Shown piece after piece: positions 1-43,048 of a DNA stretch of 43,048 bases (position 1 is the stretch's first letter; the number at the start of each line of letters is the position of its first letter). Source of the stretch: a virus; IMG/VR virus record IMGVR_UViG_3300032287_002590, positions 1 through 43,048 of that record, one strand, 5' to 3'. The notes below the pieces were generated by a model, which did no database searches, had not been told where the DNA came from, and worked only from the letters and a program-made list of their open reading frames with translations. The position numbers and the translations under genes were made by a program.

Positions 1-290
1 ACAGTTGGGCCTGTTACGCCTAACTGGCACCGTAACAGAGGCGTAACATCCGAAACCCCTTGGTACGACACGGTTGTTACGTTGTTACGTTACGTTTAAG
101 GATATAGATAGATAGATAGAGAGGTTTTTCCAAAAACGTATCACCGCCTCTGCGTCTCTCCTTGTCTCTATGGGGCTACCTCTCTATCCACCGTAACACC
201 CGTAACGACCGTAACAAACCAGTCATAGCAAGGGATCTCGGCTGTTACGCCACCGTAACAAAATCAAGCAGCGGGATCGACCGTAACAGG
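1..290. repeat. Cluster of GTTACG/CGTAAC hexamers, candidate replication origin
   Basis: Twelve copies of one hexamer in either orientation: GTTACG at 13, 76, 84, 89 and 244; CGTAAC at 31, 42, 192, 201, 210, 254 and 282. The last lies inside the end of the primase-helicase gene, and further copies occur inside that gene at 383 and 625. Such density is far above chance. Iteron-like clusters beside a primase-helicase gene are typical of phage and plasmid origins, so this is a candidate origin or initiator/primase recognition region (inference). No protein-coding gene is seen in 1-263. Confidence 0.55.
105..120. repeat. TAGA tetranucleotide microsatellite (4 copies)
   Basis: Four perfect TAGA units lie between the left and right halves of the hexamer cluster, in an otherwise AT-rich spacer. 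This may be an easily melted element of the candidate origin or a simple repeat with no role. Confidence 0.6.
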
Positions 291-3029
291 CTCCTGAATC
301 GCTGACTCCCCTTGCGCCAGAAGGGATAACGGGATTCCAACCGCCCTTGTGGTGCTCGCCAACCCCTTGAACCGCGTCACCCCGTAACGCTTGGCACCTT
401 GGAGCGAAGCGAGCAGATTCGGCCACCCTCCGGCGTGCCATTGCGTGTCCCTAAGCATCGCTTTAATGCCTTTTGCGACGTTGGAAACGACCAAAAACTG
501 CTTGTCAATCTTGAGTCCATTGCGTCCAAGCTCGGCCTCGGCGGCGCCGATGGTCACGATCCCACCAGCATCTGGTCCGCCTTCGACCACCTCGATCAGC
601 TCCGCAACGGTGCGGTTGACGCTGGTTACGTGGCCTCCGCCAAACTTGTCAAACTGCTCCACCTCTACCCTGAGACGCGTCTGCAGGATGACCTGGAGAC
701 AGTCGCCCTGATCGCCACCAGCTTCATCAGGTTGCCCACCGTGCCGGTCCCAATTGGCGCAGCGGATCATGGCCAGGGCCTGCTCCGTTGTTGGCGCCAC
801 CGCCGATTGCAGCGCCCACGCACCGGCAAGCAAGGTTCCAACCTGATCACCAGTGCGGGCACTGTTAAACTCAACTGCTGCAACACTGGAAAACACTTCG
901 GCGGCTGCACGAATCATTGGAATTAGATTGATCATCCGCGCCAGTAAACGCTTTCCGGTGTCTTTAGTTATGTGGCGCGCCAAATCAGATTCAAGGGCTT
1001 TCCAGTGAGCAGCCTTGTCTTCAGCGGTCAAGCCGTCTGGTGTGCGCAGCATCAATAGGGAAAACCTATTCCGATCCGCACCCTGCTTCAATGCTGTATT
1101 AACGCTTGATAGGACAAACATTGATCGCACATTAAACATGATGGCCTCCGACGACGCGGAACCCTTTAGGGTGTCGCCATCACCCTCGGATGACGCAACG
1201 CGAGCAAGCGAAAGAACTGATTGAATGCGTGTTATATCGGCCTTCTCATTGGACTCCGCTTCATCAAACATCACCGGCAAAGCATCCGATTTCAATCGCT
1301 GCCGGATTCCTGCTTCCGTTGTATTTCCCTTGACTTTCAGGACGACATCAGTAATCAATGGCGTAATGTACTCATTGAAAACAGTTGTCTTGCCAGAACC
1401 GGAAACTGCACTAATCCAAATATGCGGTCGCCACTCCAAAGCACCGCAGATCGGCGCGAGTGCAACCCAGCCAGCCAATAGCATTCCCGACGCTGGCGTT
1501 TCCCAATGAAATTGCTCTGCTATCGAAAGCAGGTTCGCCCCCTCCTGATCCGTAAGCGGTTCCGCCGCACCCGGCCCCTCACGCTTCGGCAACCGCTGAT
1601 AGATGTAATCACTTTGATGCGGTTCCTTGATGGGATATTTAACGCCATCAACAATCAAACGGTCGCCTAAGTGGAACACGGTGCGGCCTTCGTCCCACCA
1701 TGCGCCAACACCACGAATGCGAGACGGGTCGTAGCATCCGACTTTATGCTGCTCAGCAAGCAAATCGCTGTAACACTGCTGCCAGTCGATGCCAGTGAAA
1801 TCACCGTTTTTATTGAACCTTGGATAGGTATTGCGCCAGTATTCAATAGGTGCAATACCATACAAGTTGGTTGACGTATGCCCCCCGCGAGTGATCCGCG
1901 TTACCTGACCGCTGCCCTTGGGTTGGTAGTAGTAATCATCACCACTGAAACCCAACATGACGTATGGCGCAGGTTCGGGGCTGCTGCTGCTAGGTGTTGG
2001 CTGCACCGGGTCATCGCCGTCGCCGTCGCCTCCGGTGTCTCCGCTGTCCTGCAACTCAGGGTCGTAAACATGCAACTCCAAGTAAGCCGCTGCATCACTT
2101 TCGATCCAGGTTTCGGCGTCGGCCAGATCCCAGCCCTGCGGAGCAGCCTCGGGCGGCGCGACCGCAAGCACAGACGCAACGCCAATGCCACGCAAAATTC
2201 CCGTGAGCTTAATGGCGCATTGCTCACCGTCTTGATCGTTGTCGGGCCAGATTATTACATCTCGGCCAACCAGCGGCGACCAATCAGCATGGCCAACAGC
2301 CTTGGAACCGTTTGACCATGAGATAACAACATGCCTTGGAAACAGTAAGCAAGCTGCATCGTAAGTTGTTTCACCCTCGACAACCAAAACAGGCGCTTCC
2401 GGTCTGCGCTTTAATTCGTGCTGGCCAAGTAGTGGTCTAGGTGATGGCCATTCAGATGTAAAGGCATCATTGCGCTTGGGGAAATGCCATTTGTCGTCAA
2501 GCCAGGTGCGATGCACCAGTGTTTTCTTCGGTTTGCCGCGTTTGTCTAGCTTGGATTCATCTTCAAACCGCTGAATCCAATATAGCTGATCGCCGTTTAT
2601 GTCGGTGTAGCACCACTGCGCAACCGCCTTCCCGAGTCTCGGAGCATCCGCTGCGAATGGAGGTTTTTCGGGGATTCGCGCTGGTTTGCCGCGTTTGGTT
2701 GTTTGTTTTAAGTCGGCCACCTCACCACCAAGAAAACGCTTCACTTCACTCGCCGCTTCTTTAAATTCCCAACCCTTGGAACGCATCAGCAGATCAAATC
2801 CGCTAATGGCGCCTCCAGCCTCCTGCTTACCGCCACATTTATTACAAAATCCACCACCGTCACCTTCACGGTCATCCCAACGCCACCGATCCTGACCACC
2901 GCAAATTGGACACGGACCATGTTTGTCCTGTAGAAAATCAGGATCAATACCGCCTAGTTTTGTTAAAAGTTCAAACCATTTACCGTTAGCGAGCTTGCGG
3001 GCGTCATCACTCAGCACCGGCACCCTCAC
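264..3029 (-). CDS. Phage primase-helicase (zinc finger, Toprim, DUF927-like helicase)
   Basis: About 921 residues with a GTG start. The N terminus carries a zinc-finger quartet C40-x2-C43 and C62-x2-C65, typical of phage P4/T7-type primases. A Toprim-like core follows: VVEGE near residue 217 and the acidic run D263-N-D265-Q-D267. A low-complexity linker (about 325-355, rich in D, G, S, P) separates this from a helicase half with Walker A GSGKTT (544-549) and Walker B FDE (588-590), resembling DUF927 helicases. It should unwind and prime phage DNA at the fork. It is leftward, with the hexamer cluster directly downstream, and its start overlaps the end of the small RHH gene, so the two are probably co-transcribed from the 3188-3222 promoter. 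Several GTG codons follow the chosen start, so the exact start is uncertain. Confidence 0.85.
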   Translation of the reverse strand: MRVPVLSDDARKLANGKWFELLTKLGGIDPDFLQDKHGPCPICGGQDRWRWDDREGDGGGFCNKCGGKQEAGGAISGFDLLMRSKGWEFKEAASEVKRFLGGEVADLKQTTKRGKPARIPEKPPFAADAPRLGKAVAQWCYTDINGDQLYWIQRFEDESKLDKRGKPKKTLVHRTWLDDKWHFPKRNDAFTSEWPSPRPLLGQHELKRRPEAPVLVVEGETTYDAACLLFPRHVVISWSNGSKAVGHADWSPLVGRDVIIWPDNDQDGEQCAIKLTGILRGIGVASVLAVAPPEAAPQGWDLADAETWIESDAAAYLELHVYDPELQDSGDTGGDGDGDDPVQPTPSSSSPEPAPYVMLGFSGDDYYYQPKGSGQVTRITRGGHTSTNLYGIAPIEYWRNTYPRFNKNGDFTGIDWQQCYSDLLAEQHKVGCYDPSRIRGVGAWWDEGRTVFHLGDRLIVDGVKYPIKEPHQSDYIYQRLPKREGPGAAEPLTDQEGANLLSIAEQFHWETPASGMLLAGWVALAPICGALEWRPHIWISAVSGSGKTTVFNEYITPLITDVVLKVKGNTTEAGIRQRLKSDALPVMFDEAESNEKADITRIQSVLSLARVASSEGDGDTLKGSASSEAIMFNVRSMFVLSSVNTALKQGADRNRFSLLMLRTPDGLTAEDKAAHWKALESDLARHITKDTGKRLLARMINLIPMIRAAAEVFSSVAAVEFNSARTGDQVGTLLAGAWALQSAVAPTTEQALAMIRCANWDRHGGQPDEAGGDQGDCLQVILQTRLRVEVEQFDKFGGGHVTSVNRTVAELIEVVEGGPDAGGIVTIGAAEAELGRNGLKIDKQFLVVSNVAKGIKAMLRDTQWHAGGWPNLLASLQGAKRYGVTRFKGLASTTRAVGIPLSLLAQGESAIQEPVTVDPAA

Positions 3030-16618: not shown

Positions 16619-17476
16619 ATGGATGCTTTTAATAATTACTTGGAAACCATTTCACGATGGCCACTGCTAACACCAGCACAAGAAATAGAACTTTCTAGAT
16701 TGAAGCAAGCTGGAATCAACAGGGCCAAAAGCATTGGCACTTGCAAGCCAACTCGTCAAGACTTACGAGTTATCAAAAGGGGAGAGCGTTCAGTGGAGCG
16801 CATGGTGCTATGTAACTTGCGACTTGTAGTTTCAATTGCAAAAAACTACGTTCGACATTGCAATACCCACACAATTGAAGACTTGGTTCAATACGGATCA
16901 ATCGGCCTTAAGCGTGCGATTGAGAAATTTGACCACGAAAAAGGGTATAAGCTATCGACTTATGCAACGTGGTGGATTAAACAGGAAATCCACCGAGGCA
17001 TTTACAAAGCAGATCGTACAATACGATTACCTGAACACTGCAGGCAATCATGGGCACGACTGCGTAAGCATTCAAACGATTTAACGCAAAAGCTCGGTCG
17101 CGCACCAACGCAAGATGAATTGATAGCTACTGCTGAAATGAGTAAAAAAGATTACGCGCTTATTACAAGAGCAATGGAAGGTATTCTATCGCTTAATAGC
17201 CCAATGGAAAGCGGAGCTGAAATTATTGAATATCTGCCTGATTGCAACAACCGAAACGAAATTGCTACTGATTATACGGCGTTACTTGATACAATTGAAC
17301 TGCTCCGTGATGATGAGCGTGAATTGATTAACAGGTATTATGGCCTTAATGGCTACCCGGCTGATTCAATGGTTGAAATAAGCAAGCAGCGCGGCACATC
17401 AAGGCAAGCTGTTAAAAATCGACTTGACAGAATACAAGCAAACATGAAATTTCGTTTATCAGCTTATCAACAATGA
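16619..17476 (+). CDS. Phage sigma-70 family factor 1
   Basis: 285 residues with the RpoD-type layout. N-terminal region 1.2-like NNYLETISRWPLLTPAQEIEL; region 2 at about 60-135 with LRLVVSIAKNYV, FDHEKGYKLSTYATWWI (2.3) and QEIHRGIYKADRTIRLPEH (2.4, close to the host consensus); region 3 (about 140-200); region 4 with LLRDDERELINRYYGLNG and an HTH (ISKQRGTSRQAVKNRLDRI). This should direct host RNA polymerase to promoters near the host type. Directly followed (ATGA overlap) by a second sigma gene. Group 2/3 cyanobacterial sigma factors are the closest general relatives I can name. Confidence 0.85.
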   Translation: MDAFNNYLETISRWPLLTPAQEIELSRLKQAGINRAKSIGTCKPTRQDLRVIKRGERSVERMVLCNLRLVVSIAKNYVRHCNTHTIEDLVQYGSIGLKRAIEKFDHEKGYKLSTYATWWIKQEIHRGIYKADRTIRLPEHCRQSWARLRKHSNDLTQKLGRAPTQDELIATAEMSKKDYALITRAMEGILSLNSPMESGAEIIEYLPDCNNRNEIATDYTALLDTIELLRDDERELINRYYGLNGYPADSMVEISKQRGTSRQAVKNRLDRIQANMKFRLSAYQQ

Positions 17477-18435
17477 TTATGCAATCTGATCCTTCGCTAC
17501 GAAACTATTTAAGTCAGCTAGGCCGGTATCCACTCCTGCGACCGGAGCAAGAAATTGATCTAAGTCGCAAGGTATCTGCAATGATTGAATTGCTTGAACG
17601 AGAAGCGATGGGAGAAGAAATAACACCAGACCAGCGCCGAACAATAAAACGTGGAGCAAAGGCCAAGCAAAGGTTTATGGAAGCAAACTTAAGGCTTGTC
17701 GTTGATATTGCAAAAAAATATCAATCACGACGCAGAACGCTTGAGTTATTGGATTTGATTCAAGAGGGGAATATAGGCTTGGCGCGTGCTGTTGAAAAGT
17801 TTGACGCAACCAAAGGCTATAAATTCTCAACCTACGCTTACTGGTGGATCAGGCAGGCTATACAACGATCAATACAATGGGATGATTTTATTGTGCGCTT
17901 GCCGCTTCCGATTCACAATCAACTAATCAAAATCGGTAAAGCGCAGGAAGCATTATGCCAAGAGCTTGGACGAGAACCATCGGCGATTGAAGTTGCTAAA
18001 CGTCTAGGGGTAGATATTAAAGTTTTGAATGAGGCAGTTCGCCGCACTCGATATGTTGGCAGCTTGGATGAGCAAATGCCGGGTGGTGATGGAAATGGAA
18101 CGTATGGCGATCTGATAGCCGATCCAGCAGCCATGACCGCCGCCGAGCACCTTGACTGGCTTTCAGACCAACATGATTTTGACCGATTGTCTGATTTCTT
18201 AACAGAACACATTGACCCCCAGGCCCGCGATGTTCTGCTGAGTCGGCACGGTGCCAGGAGCGAGCCGTGGGTTGAAATCGAGAACCGCACAGGCTTGGGT
18301 CGGGCCACGCTGCAGCGCATTGAAGCTAGGGCTTTGAACCGCTGCCGCAGGTTGATGGCTGGCTTGCCCGTAGCGGCTGCGTTGCCGACTGCTGCAAGCA
18401 AAAACCAGGAACAGGTATCGCTGTTTGACCTTTAA
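17473..18435 (+). CDS. Phage sigma-70 family factor 2 with C-terminal clamp-binding-like motif
   Basis: 320 residues. Region 1.2-like NYLSQLGRYPLLRPEQEIDL; region 2 with FMEANLRLVVDIAKKY, KFDATKGYKFSTYAYWWIRQAI and then a divergent segment QRSIQWDDFIVRLPLP, where host-like factors have a basic RTIRLP stretch. Region 4 (about 235-295) holds an HTH (ENRTGLGRATLQRIEARAL). After it, a short linker ends in EQVSLFDL, Q314 to F318 matching the sliding-clamp binding consensus (QLSLF type). T4 gp55 is a sigma factor that binds its clamp by a C-terminal motif during late transcription, so this may be a late sigma coupled to the host clamp (inference). Overlaps sigma 1 by ATGA. Confidence 0.8.
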   Translation: MIMQSDPSLRNYLSQLGRYPLLRPEQEIDLSRKVSAMIELLEREAMGEEITPDQRRTIKRGAKAKQRFMEANLRLVVDIAKKYQSRRRTLELLDLIQEGNIGLARAVEKFDATKGYKFSTYAYWWIRQAIQRSIQWDDFIVRLPLPIHNQLIKIGKAQEALCQELGREPSAIEVAKRLGVDIKVLNEAVRRTRYVGSLDEQMPGGDGNGTYGDLIADPAAMTAAEHLDWLSDQHDFDRLSDFLTEHIDPQARDVLLSRHGARSEPWVEIENRTGLGRATLQRIEARALNRCRRLMAGLPVAAALPTAASKNQEQVSLFDL

Positions 18436-18467
18436 GGCTTGCGCTTGCAAGCTTAATGGTATAGGAT
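18433..18467 (+). promoter_or_regulatory. Promoter of the cyAbrB gene with shared 18-base element
   Basis: TAAGGCTTGCGCTTGCAA at 18433-18450 contains -35 TTGCGC (18439-18444); 17 bases later is -10 TAGGAT (18462-18467). The 18 bases are identical to the minus-strand element at 3205-3222. The promoter overlaps the end of sigma 2 and the earlier in-frame ATG at 18466, so transcription starts near 18474 and translation at the GTG at 18496. Confidence 0.6.
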
Positions 18468-18495
18468 GCGTAAGTCCACCAACCACTACTGCATC

Positions 18496-18876
18496 GTGGC
18501 CCAATTCACCGGAAAGGAACTGCTAGCCAAGGTCAAAGAACTCGGCGAGGCTGCCACCAAAGATCAAGTAGCCCGTGAAACCGGCTACGTCTCCATCAAA
18601 AAAGACGGCACTGAACGTTTCCAGTACAACGCCTTCTATGAGGCGCTGATGGAAGCAAAGGGAATTGGATTTGCCCCCGCAGCCACCAACCGCCCCGGTC
18701 GCCAGCTCAGCTACAAGGCGGTGGTGCAGGCCAGCGGCAATCTTATCATCGGCAGGGGTTACACCACCGCCCATGGCGCCCAGGCTACCGACGAGTTCAC
18801 CATCGAACTCCTTGAGGACGGCGCCTTCAAGCTCACTCCGATCTACGAAGACGAGGCCGTAGCCGTAGCGGCTTGA
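18496..18876 (+). CDS. cyAbrB-family transcriptional regulator
   Basis: 126 residues from the GTG at 18496. The pattern FTGKELLAKVKELGEAATKDQVARETGYVS, then KKDGTERFQYNAFYEALMEAKG, and the C-terminal GNLIIGRGYTT and DEFTIELLEDG segments match the cyanobacterial AbrB family. Host cyAbrB proteins repress nitrogen and carbon metabolism genes and many are nucleoid-associated. A phage copy suggests remodelling of host transcription during infection or lysogeny (inference). It has its own promoter and is closed by a strong terminator. Last rightward gene. Confidence 0.85.
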   Translation: MAQFTGKELLAKVKELGEAATKDQVARETGYVSIKKDGTERFQYNAFYEALMEAKGIGFAPAATNRPGRQLSYKAVVQASGNLIIGRGYTTAHGAQATDEFTIELLEDGAFKLTPIYEDEAVAVAA

Positions 18877-22666: not shown

Positions 22667-24739
22667 CTAGGAATCGGGGAATGCTCCAATCGGTGGGGTG
22701 AAGCTTGCCGTATAGCGAGCAACGCCTTTTGTAATGCGTAGTTCATCCATCCACCCTTGAAAGAACTCGCCATCACGGCTTCCTCTGGTTGCAATATGTG
22801 CCCGCCCGAGGCTTATGTTATTGCTATTTGTGACCGTATTAACTAAAACGCCATCTATAAAAACCCGAAGACTGGTGCCCTGACGGCTTGCTGCAACGTG
22901 ATGCCAAGTATCAACAGCAATTGTACCTGCCGTTTGCCCTGAGTTGTACCAAGTCAACTGACCACTCAGAATGTAAAGCGTATCAATATCTCCTGATCCA
23001 AGCCCGATCAATCCTCTATAGTTGTTAACAGATACGGTAGGGCGAATAAACGCCTCTATTGTAAAATCACCCGTGCCCATTTGCAAGGGTACTAACGAAC
23101 TGGCGGTTAACAGGTAGTCATTAGAGCCGTCAAAGTAAGCAGATGAACCACCAAACTTGCTTTGAGCGGTACTAATTTGTGCGCCGTTATAGCCTGTTAC
23201 GGTAATGGCGTTGCTACTGCTATCAATAAATGTTGTGCTGCCGTTTGTGCCGCTAAAGTGCAGCAACAGTGAAACCGACGAGAAATTAGGATCAGGGGGT
23301 AGCCTATCTGGAAACGGTTCAATGGGTGGGGTGAAGTCGGATACATAGCGGGCAACTGCCTTGGAAACGCGCAAATCGTCTATGTAGCCATTGAATACAT
23401 GATAAGGATATGGGCCGCCGCCAAAGAAAAATCTCCCAATTACGTCAATTCGGAAAGTGCCTGTCCAACTGGTATTTGTGCCTCCGATTTGAAAGCCATT
23501 GACAAACATCCGAGTAGAGCTGCCAGCACGGCAAATGGCAACATGCTGCCAAGTATTTGGTGTGATGTTTGCAGCAGTTGGGGAAAAAACCTGAGTGCCG
23601 TTGAGGTAGAAACTTAGACGCCCAGGCAGTCCCCCTTCATTTAATCGAAAAATTTGCGTATTATCATCCGACGTACTTGATGCTGCTATCATATCGTCGG
23701 AACTTAAAGGATAAAGCCAAGCCTCAATAGTAAAGTCCCCAGTCATTTGCAGGCTTGGCTGGGGCGTATATGTAATATATGTATTTCCATTAGCATTATT
23801 AAATAATCCAGACGATCCACCAAACTTACTTTGAGAGGTATTGATTCTTGCACCTACAACGCCAGAAGCCGCCAAAGCATAGCTGCTAGAGTCAACAAAA
23901 GTTGTTGAGTCATTTGCGCCTTGAAAATGCAATAGCAATGAAACCAACGAATAGTAAATATCAGAAGAAGAAGAATTTGTAGAAGAAGGTAGATTATCTG
24001 GGAAGGGTTCACTGGGCGGGCTGAAGTTTGTGGTGTAGCGTGCGGTGCCAACTGTTATCCTAATGTCATCTAAGTAACCAGATATATAGCCGACATTTAA
24101 TTGAGTTGAGCCGCCAATCTGCATTGTAGATTCGCTAAAATTGTTTGTTACTGTGCTGTTGCCGCCAACCTGCGTTCCATTAAAAAATCTGCGCATTACG
24201 GCTGATCCGTCTCGCGTTAAGGCAAAGTGCGTCCAGGTGTTATCCTGAATGGACGTAACAGGCGAATTCTCAAAAATCCAAGTATTTGCAGTGCTAACCC
24301 GACCGTCAGCAAAAATATCAATTCCATTTGTACCAACATTTCCACTTCTTGAATTAAACATTACGCTAGTAGACGGATTTGAGCTGTTGCGATAAAACCA
24401 AAACTCCACAGTAAAAGCGCCCGAACCAAGTCCACCGCTGATACTTGTACTAAGATAGTCTCCATTGCCATCAAATACTGCACTTGCGCCACCGAACTTG
24501 GACTGAGTTGTGCTAATTTTACAATCGCCATTTGGCGTAACCGAACGAGCTGTATTGCTTGAATCAATAAAAGTCGTTGAATTATTAAGGCCGTTGCAGT
24601 GCAGCAACAGTGCAACCGACAAAAAGGAAGCATCACCCGGTAAAATAAGACTTTCAAGCGCCACTTCAGGCAATCGAAAAGGCACTAAGCGACCATCAAG
24701 CGGACGGCTGTAAATTCGTATTACACCGCTGACAGACAT
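22667..24739 (-). CDS. Tail protein with three LamG/concanavalin A-like domains
   Basis: 690 residues. Three tandem copies (about 40-240, 260-465, 480-690) of a LamG jelly-roll, each with SVxLLLHxxGxNxSTTFxDSS, then QSKFGG, a central W-rich segment and a GYxDDxRIT-x-AR motif at the end. These lectin-like folds bind glycans, so the protein probably recognises host surface sugars. A fourth related LamG protein is encoded at 41942-42655. The repeats look like internal duplications. Confidence 0.8.
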   Translation of the reverse strand: MSVSGVIRIYSRPLDGRLVPFRLPEVALESLILPGDASFLSVALLLHCNGLNNSTTFIDSSNTARSVTPNGDCKISTTQSKFGGASAVFDGNGDYLSTSISGGLGSGAFTVEFWFYRNSSNPSTSVMFNSRSGNVGTNGIDIFADGRVSTANTWIFENSPVTSIQDNTWTHFALTRDGSAVMRRFFNGTQVGGNSTVTNNFSESTMQIGGSTQLNVGYISGYLDDIRITVGTARYTTNFSPPSEPFPDNLPSSTNSSSSDIYYSLVSLLLHFQGANDSTTFVDSSSYALAASGVVGARINTSQSKFGGSSGLFNNANGNTYITYTPQPSLQMTGDFTIEAWLYPLSSDDMIAASSTSDDNTQIFRLNEGGLPGRLSFYLNGTQVFSPTAANITPNTWQHVAICRAGSSTRMFVNGFQIGGTNTSWTGTFRIDVIGRFFFGGGPYPYHVFNGYIDDLRVSKAVARYVSDFTPPIEPFPDRLPPDPNFSSVSLLLHFSGTNGSTTFIDSSSNAITVTGYNGAQISTAQSKFGGSSAYFDGSNDYLLTASSLVPLQMGTGDFTIEAFIRPTVSVNNYRGLIGLGSGDIDTLYILSGQLTWYNSGQTAGTIAVDTWHHVAASRQGTSLRVFIDGVLVNTVTNSNNISLGRAHIATRGSRDGEFFQGWMDELRITKGVARYTASFTPPIGAFPDS

Positions 24740-41372: not shown

Positions 41373-41942
41373 TCATTCCACCACAGCCCCCAGTGCCTCC
41401 ACGAAATCGGCTGGCAGATCAAATTGCTCGGCCAGCGTCTGCACGGCGGCCAGCAGCTCAGGCGAAATCAGGTTGAGCGCGAGGGCCATGCTCCAGGACG
41501 ACAGGAACACCCTTGCATCGCCGTCAGCCGCCTTGCCCAGACCAACGCCAAGACCCAGGCCCAGGGCTGGCGCCTGCTGCAGGGCTGCACCGAGAAGTGT
41601 ATTGATAGCCGGGCTGCTTTGGACTGCAGCACCGAACTCAACCCAGCGGGGCTGGAGTGTTGCCGGAGGCAGCTCCACCAGCTCCCAGGCTTGCTGCCAG
41701 GCGCCATCGACTAGAACTGGGGCAATCTCAACGGCTTGGAACAAGGCGGGATCGTGCTCAGGTTGCGACGTGGCGCTGTAGGCAACCAGTAGGATCGGCG
41801 GCTCCAGGGCGGCATAACTGGCCAGCTCGGCGCTGTGCGGGTCGTTGCTGACGGATAGGCGTGGTTCGTCCGCTCGCAACTGCGCTGCTGTGTAGGGCCA
41901 TTGGGGGCCGGTGAGCCGTAGGCGGAGGATATGGTTTGCCAT
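41373..41942 (-). CDS. Hypothetical protein, tail fibre-assembly-like pattern
   Basis: 189 residues. The pattern VLVDGAWQQAWELVELPPATLQPRWVEF followed by a helical C terminus resembles the layout of phage tail fibre assembly or chaperone proteins, but I cannot confirm a family. The ATG overlaps the LamG stop by one base (TGATG). Confidence 0.5.
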   Translation of the reverse strand: MANHILRLRLTGPQWPYTAAQLRADEPRLSVSNDPHSAELASYAALEPPILLVAYSATSQPEHDPALFQAVEIAPVLVDGAWQQAWELVELPPATLQPRWVEFGAAVQSSPAINTLLGAALQQAPALGLGLGVGLGKAADGDARVFLSSWSMALALNLISPELLAAVQTLAEQFDLPADFVEALGAVVE

Positions 41943-42655
41943 CAGAAGTCAGGGAATGGCGCGGTCGGTACGGTGAAGTCGGCGGTATAGCGGGCCGCCT
42001 TAGTGATTCTCAATTCATCAATATACCCGTTGTAATTTAATTGACTTGGACTATTACCATCTGCGCCGAGAATAGGACGCGAAGCGCCTACTGAATAATT
42101 GCTGCTGTCTGTAATCGTGCCACCTACCTGCGTGCCATTCAGGAAGCCCCGCAAGCTGCCGCCCGATCGGCAAACTGCAATAAAGTTCCAGGCGTTAAGA
42201 GAAAGCGTGCCATTTATATAGGTGTTATCATTGGCAACGATTGCCAGAGAGGCGTTCGACGTGTACACAATAAGCCGATTTTGTATACTAGCAAAGTTGA
42301 GCGCTCTTGAGTCGAATATCACTTTAATCCCAGTTAATGACAACGGGTAGATCCAGAACTCAACTGAAAAATCCCCAGCCCCGAATGCAAAACTATTTGA
42401 GCCGTCCAGCGTTAAATAATCTCCAGACCCATCAAACGCAATACTGCTGCCACCAAACTTGCTCTGCGCCGTGCTGATCTGCGCACCGCCAACTGTCGTC
42501 ACCGTCTTAGGTGATGGGCTGCTATCGGTGATAGCGGTGGAGCCGTCGGCTCCATTGCCATGAAGAAGCAGGGAGACGTTGGCAAAGTAAGGGTCGGAAT
42601 CAGCGCCACCCAATCCCCCAACAAACCCCAGATCCCGCAGGGTCAGCGTGGTCAT
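41942..42655 (-). CDS. Single LamG-domain protein
   Basis: 237 residues from the ATG at 42655, which overlaps the previous stop (ATGA); a longer start at 42682 is not needed. Contains one LamG jelly-roll with NVSLLLHGNGADGST, QSKFGGSS, a central WIYPL segment and ELRITKAARYT at the end, closely matching each repeat of the protein at 22667-24739. Placed before the tail tube gene, so it could be a head or neck decoration lectin (inference). Confidence 0.75.
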   Translation of the reverse strand: MTTLTLRDLGFVGGLGGADSDPYFANVSLLLHGNGADGSTAITDSSPSPKTVTTVGGAQISTAQSKFGGSSIAFDGSGDYLTLDGSNSFAFGAGDFSVEFWIYPLSLTGIKVIFDSRALNFASIQNRLIVYTSNASLAIVANDNTYINGTLSLNAWNFIAVCRSGGSLRGFLNGTQVGGTITDSSNYSVGASRPILGADGNSPSQLNYNGYIDELRITKAARYTADFTVPTAPFPDF

Positions 42656-43048
42656 GCCTGCACCCCGTAGGCGGCCACGCAATCGCTATCAGCCGTGCCG
42701 AAATAGGTCAGGCTGAGCACCGCAGTCTTGCTGGCAGCAATCGTGGACGGCTTGGTTCCCAGGAACACCCAGCCAGCGGGGAACGTCAGGGCGCGGGCCG
42801 TGCCGTCGCAGATCAGTCGGATCGTCACCTGGCGGCCACTGGCGCGGTTGCTGGTGGTGAGTGTCAGCGCACCTGTCAGGCTGATCGTGCGATACCCGCC
42901 GGCCAGCGCGGCTAGGTCGAGATCGACTGTGGCGGCATAGGTGATCGTGGCGGCGGTGAACGTAACTGGCAACTTCGCGGCGTCGTTGCCGTCGAGCTTC
43001 TGAATTGCCTGCAGAATCGTGTCTGTTGCGGAAACAGCTCCAGCGCCG
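42652..43048 (-). CDS. Tail fibre-like structural protein, 5' partial
   Basis: Open to the right edge of the window; the visible 131 residues are the C terminus. The frame reads through position 43048 and includes AVSATDTILQAIQKLDGND, a segment typical of phage tail fibre-like proteins, then a beta-rich domain (TVDLDLAALAGGYRTISL and RQVTIRLICDG). A TTG at 42972 is an internal codon, not the start. Confidence 0.7.
   Translation of the reverse strand, partial: GAGAVSATDTILQAIQKLDGNDAAKLPVTFTAATITYAATVDLDLAALAGGYRTISLTGALTLTTSNRASGRQVTIRLICDGTARALTFPAGWVFLGTKPSTIAASKTAVLSLTYFGTADSDCVAAYGVQA

Follow-up and report, generated by a model that had tools for sequence, protein, structure and literature searches.

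Background

Coupling of transcription to replication through the sliding clamp is documented for phages of the T4 type, where it involves gp55, gp33 and gp45. The gp55 protein, which resembles sigma factors in region 2 only, carries a C-terminal clamp-binding peptide after a divergent linker that is variable in length (PMC2988020); the clamp-binding peptide of gp33 is essential for activation, and that of gp55 aids it (PMC7892883). The bacterial clamp motifs are short peptides of the QLxLF type, often C-terminal, that seem to have arisen independently on many occasions (PMC4549789, PMC12309361), with a consensus of QxxLF or QL[SD]LF (PMC12309361). In the literature searched, which covered few subscription journals, no sigma factor with a clamp-binding motif was found outside the T4-like phages. 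Here, we describe a full-length sigma-70 factor of host type, from a cyanobacterial siphovirus, that ends in a candidate motif of the bacterial kind.

A sigma factor with a clamp-type C-terminal tail

The window, i.e., the whole stretch of viral DNA that was analysed (43,048 nucleotides; IMG/VR record IMGVR_UViG_3300032287_002590), contains two tandem sigma factor genes with a 4-nt overlap, designated sigA and sigB, and the tail is found on sigB only. The features are as follows.

264..3029, minus strand: primase-type replication protein, 47% identical to the primase of Synechococcus phage S-H1
16619..17476, plus strand: sigA, the second sigma-70 factor, tail-less, directly upstream of sigB
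17473..18435, plus strand: sigB, phage sigma-70 factor of 320 amino acids (ORF translation, Pfam, PHROG, solved sigma factors)
17494..17583, plus strand: sigma region 1.2, sigB residues 8-37 (Pfam PF00140)
17677..17874, plus strand: sigma region 2, sigB residues 69-134 (Pfam PF04542)
17920..18150, plus strand: sigma region 3, sigB residues 150-226 (Pfam PF04539)
18178..18357, plus strand: divergent region 4 helix-turn-helix, sigB residues ~236-295 (PHROG 351, solved sigma factors)
18358..18408, plus strand: sigB linker, residues 296-312, predicted with mostly low confidence (AlphaFold2 pLDDT)
18409..18432, plus strand: clamp-binding-type C-terminal tail EQVSLFDL, sigB residues 313-320 (from the sequence)
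18412-18426, plus strand: core QVSLF of the sigB tail, Q314-F318 (from the sequence)
18466..18876, plus strand: AbrB-like regulator (Pfam PF14250)

The sigB protein is a member of the sigma-70 family, with regions 1.2, 2 and 3 and the sigma fold, and its residues 59-299 are covered by PHROG 351 (phage RNA polymerase sigma factor). Region 4 has no Pfam match, but helices were placed at residues 249-295 and the alignment with solved sigma factors extends to residue 293-296, which leaves the final ~25 residues beyond the sigma fold. The translation ends in ...ASKNQEQVSLFDL before the stop codon. An AlphaFold2 model, built from 24 sequences, matched sigma factors from PDB structures of transcription complexes, although with low global TM-scores (0.3-0.4) that presumably reflect differing domain placement. 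The pLDDT of the model was 73 for residues 291-300 and below 50 for residues 302-320, and since the sigma fold ends earlier, the motif is predicted to belong to a disordered tail rather than to the fold. Judged by its sequence, this tail is a canonical bacterial clamp-binding motif in a flexible segment. The original prediction, namely that the 17473-18435 product is a sigma-70 protein ending in EQVSLFDL, that Q314-V-S-L-F318 fits the clamp-binding consensus (as a motif of the QxxLF or QL[SD]LF type), and that it occupies the extreme, flexible C terminus, was therefore borne out in each of these respects, including the residue numbering.

The other genes of the window encode siphovirus tail proteins, a serine recombinase, RecT-like and SSB proteins and a PDDEXK-like protein, and the AbrB-like regulator suggests a cyanobacterial host. 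The window genes scanned include neither a terminase nor a head gene; thus, the record is incomplete. Two tail-region proteins (22667-24739 and 41942-42682) match the same PHROGs, the first of them being laminin-G/concanavalin-like. In two of the related contigs (G028 and G008), the tail module, spanning tape measure to tail tip, is present in two copies, a sign that these may be joined or chimeric assemblies. A scan for promoters and terminators near the sigma genes of the window gave chance level only, no late promoter emerged, and searches of viral contigs with the sigB C terminus, sigA, a tail protein and the primase returned no close orthologue. Tandem sigma genes, the first tail-less and the second ending in EQLSLFAA, do occur in three other contigs (L307-L309) in the same order as sigA and sigB, and a division of labour between the tandem factors is therefore possible.

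Distribution of the tail among sigma factors

The phage sigma factors closest to sigB are ~42% identical to it and form its sister group in the tree (support 100/98). None of the 133 sequences of this nearest clade carries the clamp motif; instead, they end in another conserved segment after region 4, NPLxxTPLG. This result speaks against the main account, as these sigma factors are tail-less although their phages often encode a clamp; it also argues against a conserved function in the sigB lineage, and a tail fixed within the sigB clade was therefore ruled out. Inheritance from the host was likewise rejected, since 0 of 80 cyanobacterial sigma factors have such a tail. It is to be noted that the tree is compatible with a single origin of the tailed state, so that the nearest clade may just as well have lost the tail as sigB may have gained it. 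The collections searched held no close orthologue of sigB by which selection on its own tail could be gauged.

Tails of the same type were found on the sigma factors of two cultured cyanosiphophages, both of which were among the first database matches and fall in clades separate from sigB, namely KBS-S-2A, ending in ...MLQLPLIP, and S-LBS1, ending in ...LQLVLVEAP. Relatives of the KBS-S-2A factor end in QQLTLVQ or SQLTLIQ, and some other members of that clade in GTLPLLQVQ, with the canonical glutamine lost. Within the S-LBS1 clade, the tails include TEQLSLFAA, GEQLRLF, GDQLELL, GEQLTLL and GTQLALFGPLE, as well as GQLVLPLT, GQLALPLV, GQLSLLVA, GQLTLLAIA and VEQLALI, preceded by linkers that vary in sequence; the KBS clade also combines a conserved tip with a divergent linker. 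A tail is present in 11 of the 19 S-LBS1-clade clusters defined at 80% identity, and 23 tailed sequences were observed in this clade against a shuffle mean of 0.7 (maximum 4 in 2,000 rounds). Codon comparisons pointed the same way. Two of the sequences (L321 and L323) have synonymous differences at each conserved position of QLxLPL and a residue change only at the free position, and among three others (L325, L327 and L335) the free third position varies, as does the L/F of the fifth. We read these patterns in the S-LBS1- and KBS-type tails as signs of purifying selection. The expectation that the tail would be conserved in homologues was thus contradicted in the nearest clade; comparable tails are present in two further siphovirus groups.

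The S-LBS1 sigma factor (L169 4983-5936) and its relatives additionally conserve a second QLVLV motif, HSVQLVLVAV, right after region 4, and some members of the clade (L285-like) have the inner motif only (PDQLVLVPVE).

Frequency of the motif in protein tails

The frequency of the motif was determined in a non-redundant set of 1,530 protein tails taken from related phage loci, 66 from sigma factors and 1,464 from other proteins, with the window excluded. In this set, for which the relatives of S-LBS1 and KBS-S-2A had been collected once the tails of the founders were already noticed, a circumstance that bears on the enrichment counts, Q[LVIM][STDNP][LM][FLIVM] occurred within the last 12 residues of 11 of the 66 sigma tail clusters and 6 of the 1,464 others (p = 4e-12), and QxxLF in 4 and 1, respectively (p = 1.5e-5). 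An earlier set, compiled before the S-LBS1 clade was added, gave 3/28 sigma against 4/887 other tails (p = 8e-4). The fairest sample consists of the six cultured cyanophage sigma factors that had been retrieved beforehand (S-CBS1, S-CBS3, KBS-S-2A, S-LBS1, PSS2 and MaAM05); two of these six have the motif, compared with ~0.7% of other tails, which by arithmetic amounts to roughly 7e-4. The tailed sigma lineages number three with the window included, a small count at the level of clades.

These frequencies bear directly on the possibility that, unlike the genuine tails of the S-LBS1 and KBS factors, that of sigB itself arose by chance or is decaying, and does not serve a clamp. Such a view draws on the position of sigB as the sole tailed member of its clade, with orthologues too distant for selection to be measured. 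Nonetheless, the full pattern Q[LVM][SDT]LF, found in the last 12 residues of 2 of the 66 sigma tails, was present in 0 of the 1,464 non-sigma tails, and shuffling of the last 24 residues of sigB produced it in just 0.06% of cases; moreover, the motif sits at the extreme C terminus of a type of protein that is tailed elsewhere too. We therefore regard chance or decay as an unlikely explanation, and consider it quite probable that the sigB motif is real and functional for clamp binding.

Candidate clamps

No DnaN gene was found in the window, and it had been proposed on this ground that the clamp of the host is used. This reasoning did not hold, and was discarded, because the window is incomplete and breaks off close to where dnaN would be expected: 263 bp remain beyond the stop codon of the minus-strand primase gene (264-3029), and S-H1 and three related contigs have dnaN ~0.5-0.7 kb downstream of the primase, with the terminase after it. 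DnaN is also encoded in 22 of the 31 contigs that carry the nearest sigma homologues, 21 of them scoring above the curated cut-off and one being cut by the contig end. In S-H1, dnaN is located at L165 18187-19236. Among S-H1 and contigs G001-G031, many cyanosiphophages of this group have their own DnaN between primase and terminase, although their sigma factors are tail-less.

The situation in the other tailed clades is different. No DnaN was detected in KBS-S-2A, in S-LBS1 or in 46 contigs that were collected with the S-LBS1 sigma factor, nor was it seen in most KBS-type records; the KBS-clade contig that does have DnaN, G037, has a degenerate sigma tail. Clamp binding in the S-LBS1-type phages and most KBS-type phages would therefore need the host clamp. 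The tendency of phages with tailed sigma factors to lack DnaN, confounded as it is by lineage and by the fragmentary state of many contigs, could mean that the tail serves the host clamp. The DnaE of picocyanobacteria carries QGNLFDL, which appears to be the clamp motif of the host polymerase itself, and the QVSLFDL of sigB is thus close to the apparent motif of that enzyme.

Proposed mechanism and alternatives

We infer clamp binding, the clamp that is used, and the coupling to replication or to late genes, in the following manner. Regions 2-4 of sigB would bind the host RNA polymerase and phage promoters, while the disordered tail QVSLFDL would fit into the hydrophobic pocket of a DnaN sliding clamp, which would come either from the host or from a phage gene located immediately past the left end of the window. 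In this way, the phage holoenzyme would be held by clamps that remain on phage DNA under replication, such that transcription from sigB promoters would rise after the onset of replication and be directed to phage genomes, as with gp55 and gp45 of T4. We consider this account as a whole, in which the sigB tail binds the clamp and couples transcription to replication, to be the likeliest use of the tail, with a probability of about 0.6; by analogy with T4, coupling to replication, and to late genes specifically, is plausible.

The tail may alternatively bind the clamp in order to place the holoenzyme at replication forks, or to compete for it with the host polymerase and with repair proteins in a takeover of host replication, without activation of late promoters. 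The resemblance of the tail to the DnaE motif would suit this role, as would the similar tails on a methyltransferase-like family of these phages, which suggest that clamp docking is not confined to transcription. Nevertheless, the sigB motif is borne by a sigma factor rather than by a small inhibitor, and tandem sigma pairs recur, both of which point to transcription; we thus view action at the fork or in takeover as improbable, to about the same degree as a chance origin. Less probable still is the binding of another partner, such as the RNA polymerase surface, a phage co-activator or a protease adaptor, by a hydrophobic peptide whose clamp likeness is secondary, since the glutamine at position 1, the leucine at position 4 and the free position 3 are hallmarks of clamp motifs (PMC12309361, PMC4549789) and the QLxLPL forms correspond to QLSLPL, a tight-binding E. 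coli peptide, even though the NPLxxTPLG of tail-less relatives shows that the position after region 4 can serve other partners and the KBS-clade members ending in GTLPLLQVQ dispense with the glutamine.

The methyltransferase-like proteins are ~200 amino acids long (MRVLVACEYSGRVRDAFR..., with no Pfam match; L253:1712-2305, L213:1068-1664 and L304:6951-7562) and end in the clamp-type tails QLSLVI, QLSLLG or QLNLLSVA; in two contigs (L304 and L306), the gene adjoins the sigma gene, directly after it. Because this family is also tailed, clamp docking may be a wider habit of these phages. Clamp-type ends, INQQMSLI and IHQQMSLLTCC, were also noted on an unnamed protein of ~248 amino acids with no Pfam match (L202:5077-5823 and L011:1369-2178). 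The N6 adenine methylase of S-H1 (L165 10544-11506) ends in QVSLSLLDDL, and its 95% identical homologue in G037 ends in QVEIAGLDDL, the motif being lost.

Returning to replication-coupled transcription, the odds seem evenly balanced for a broader reading in which at least three cyanosiphovirus sigma lineages have repeatedly gained clamp tails, and in which transcription coupled to replication through the beta clamp is widespread and independent of T4, using the host clamp in S-LBS1-type phages and possibly a phage clamp in the S-H1-like group. If coupling holds true for full-length sigma-70 factors of small siphoviruses with bacterial DnaN, the principle would be general and would have evolved more than once, and it would explain the timing of gene expression in small temperate cyanophages. 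It also raises the question of why some relatives have their own dnaN and yet tail-less sigma factors.

Comparison with known systems

The short QLxLF-type peptides of bacterial clamp partners, such as QLSLF of PolC, the tight-binding QLSLPL peptide and those of IS transposases, are similar to the sigB tail, but none of these proteins is a sigma factor. The cyanobacterial group 2 sigma factors are ~40% identical to sigB through regions 1.2-4, and differ in ending directly after region 4. The sigma factors of S-LBS1 and KBS-S-2A are closer in design, as they belong to the same protein family, have a C-terminal clamp-type motif (QLVLVEAP and LQLPLIP, respectively) and are encoded at a similar position, near a lysozyme gene in S-LBS1; nonetheless, they represent separate sigma clades and their genomes lack DnaN. 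The S-LBS1 paper does not mention a clamp. The likeness to T4 gp55 lies in the arrangement, since sigB and the KBS and S-LBS1 factors all have, as known here from sequence, a hydrophobic clamp-type peptide at the extreme C terminus after a variable linker. Homology of sigB to gp55 was ruled out, however, by the full-length sigma architecture of sigB, with regions 1.2, 2 and 3 and a region 4, as opposed to region 2 only; moreover, the sigB peptide is of the bacterial QxxLF type, as would suit the dimeric DnaN rather than the trimeric gp45.
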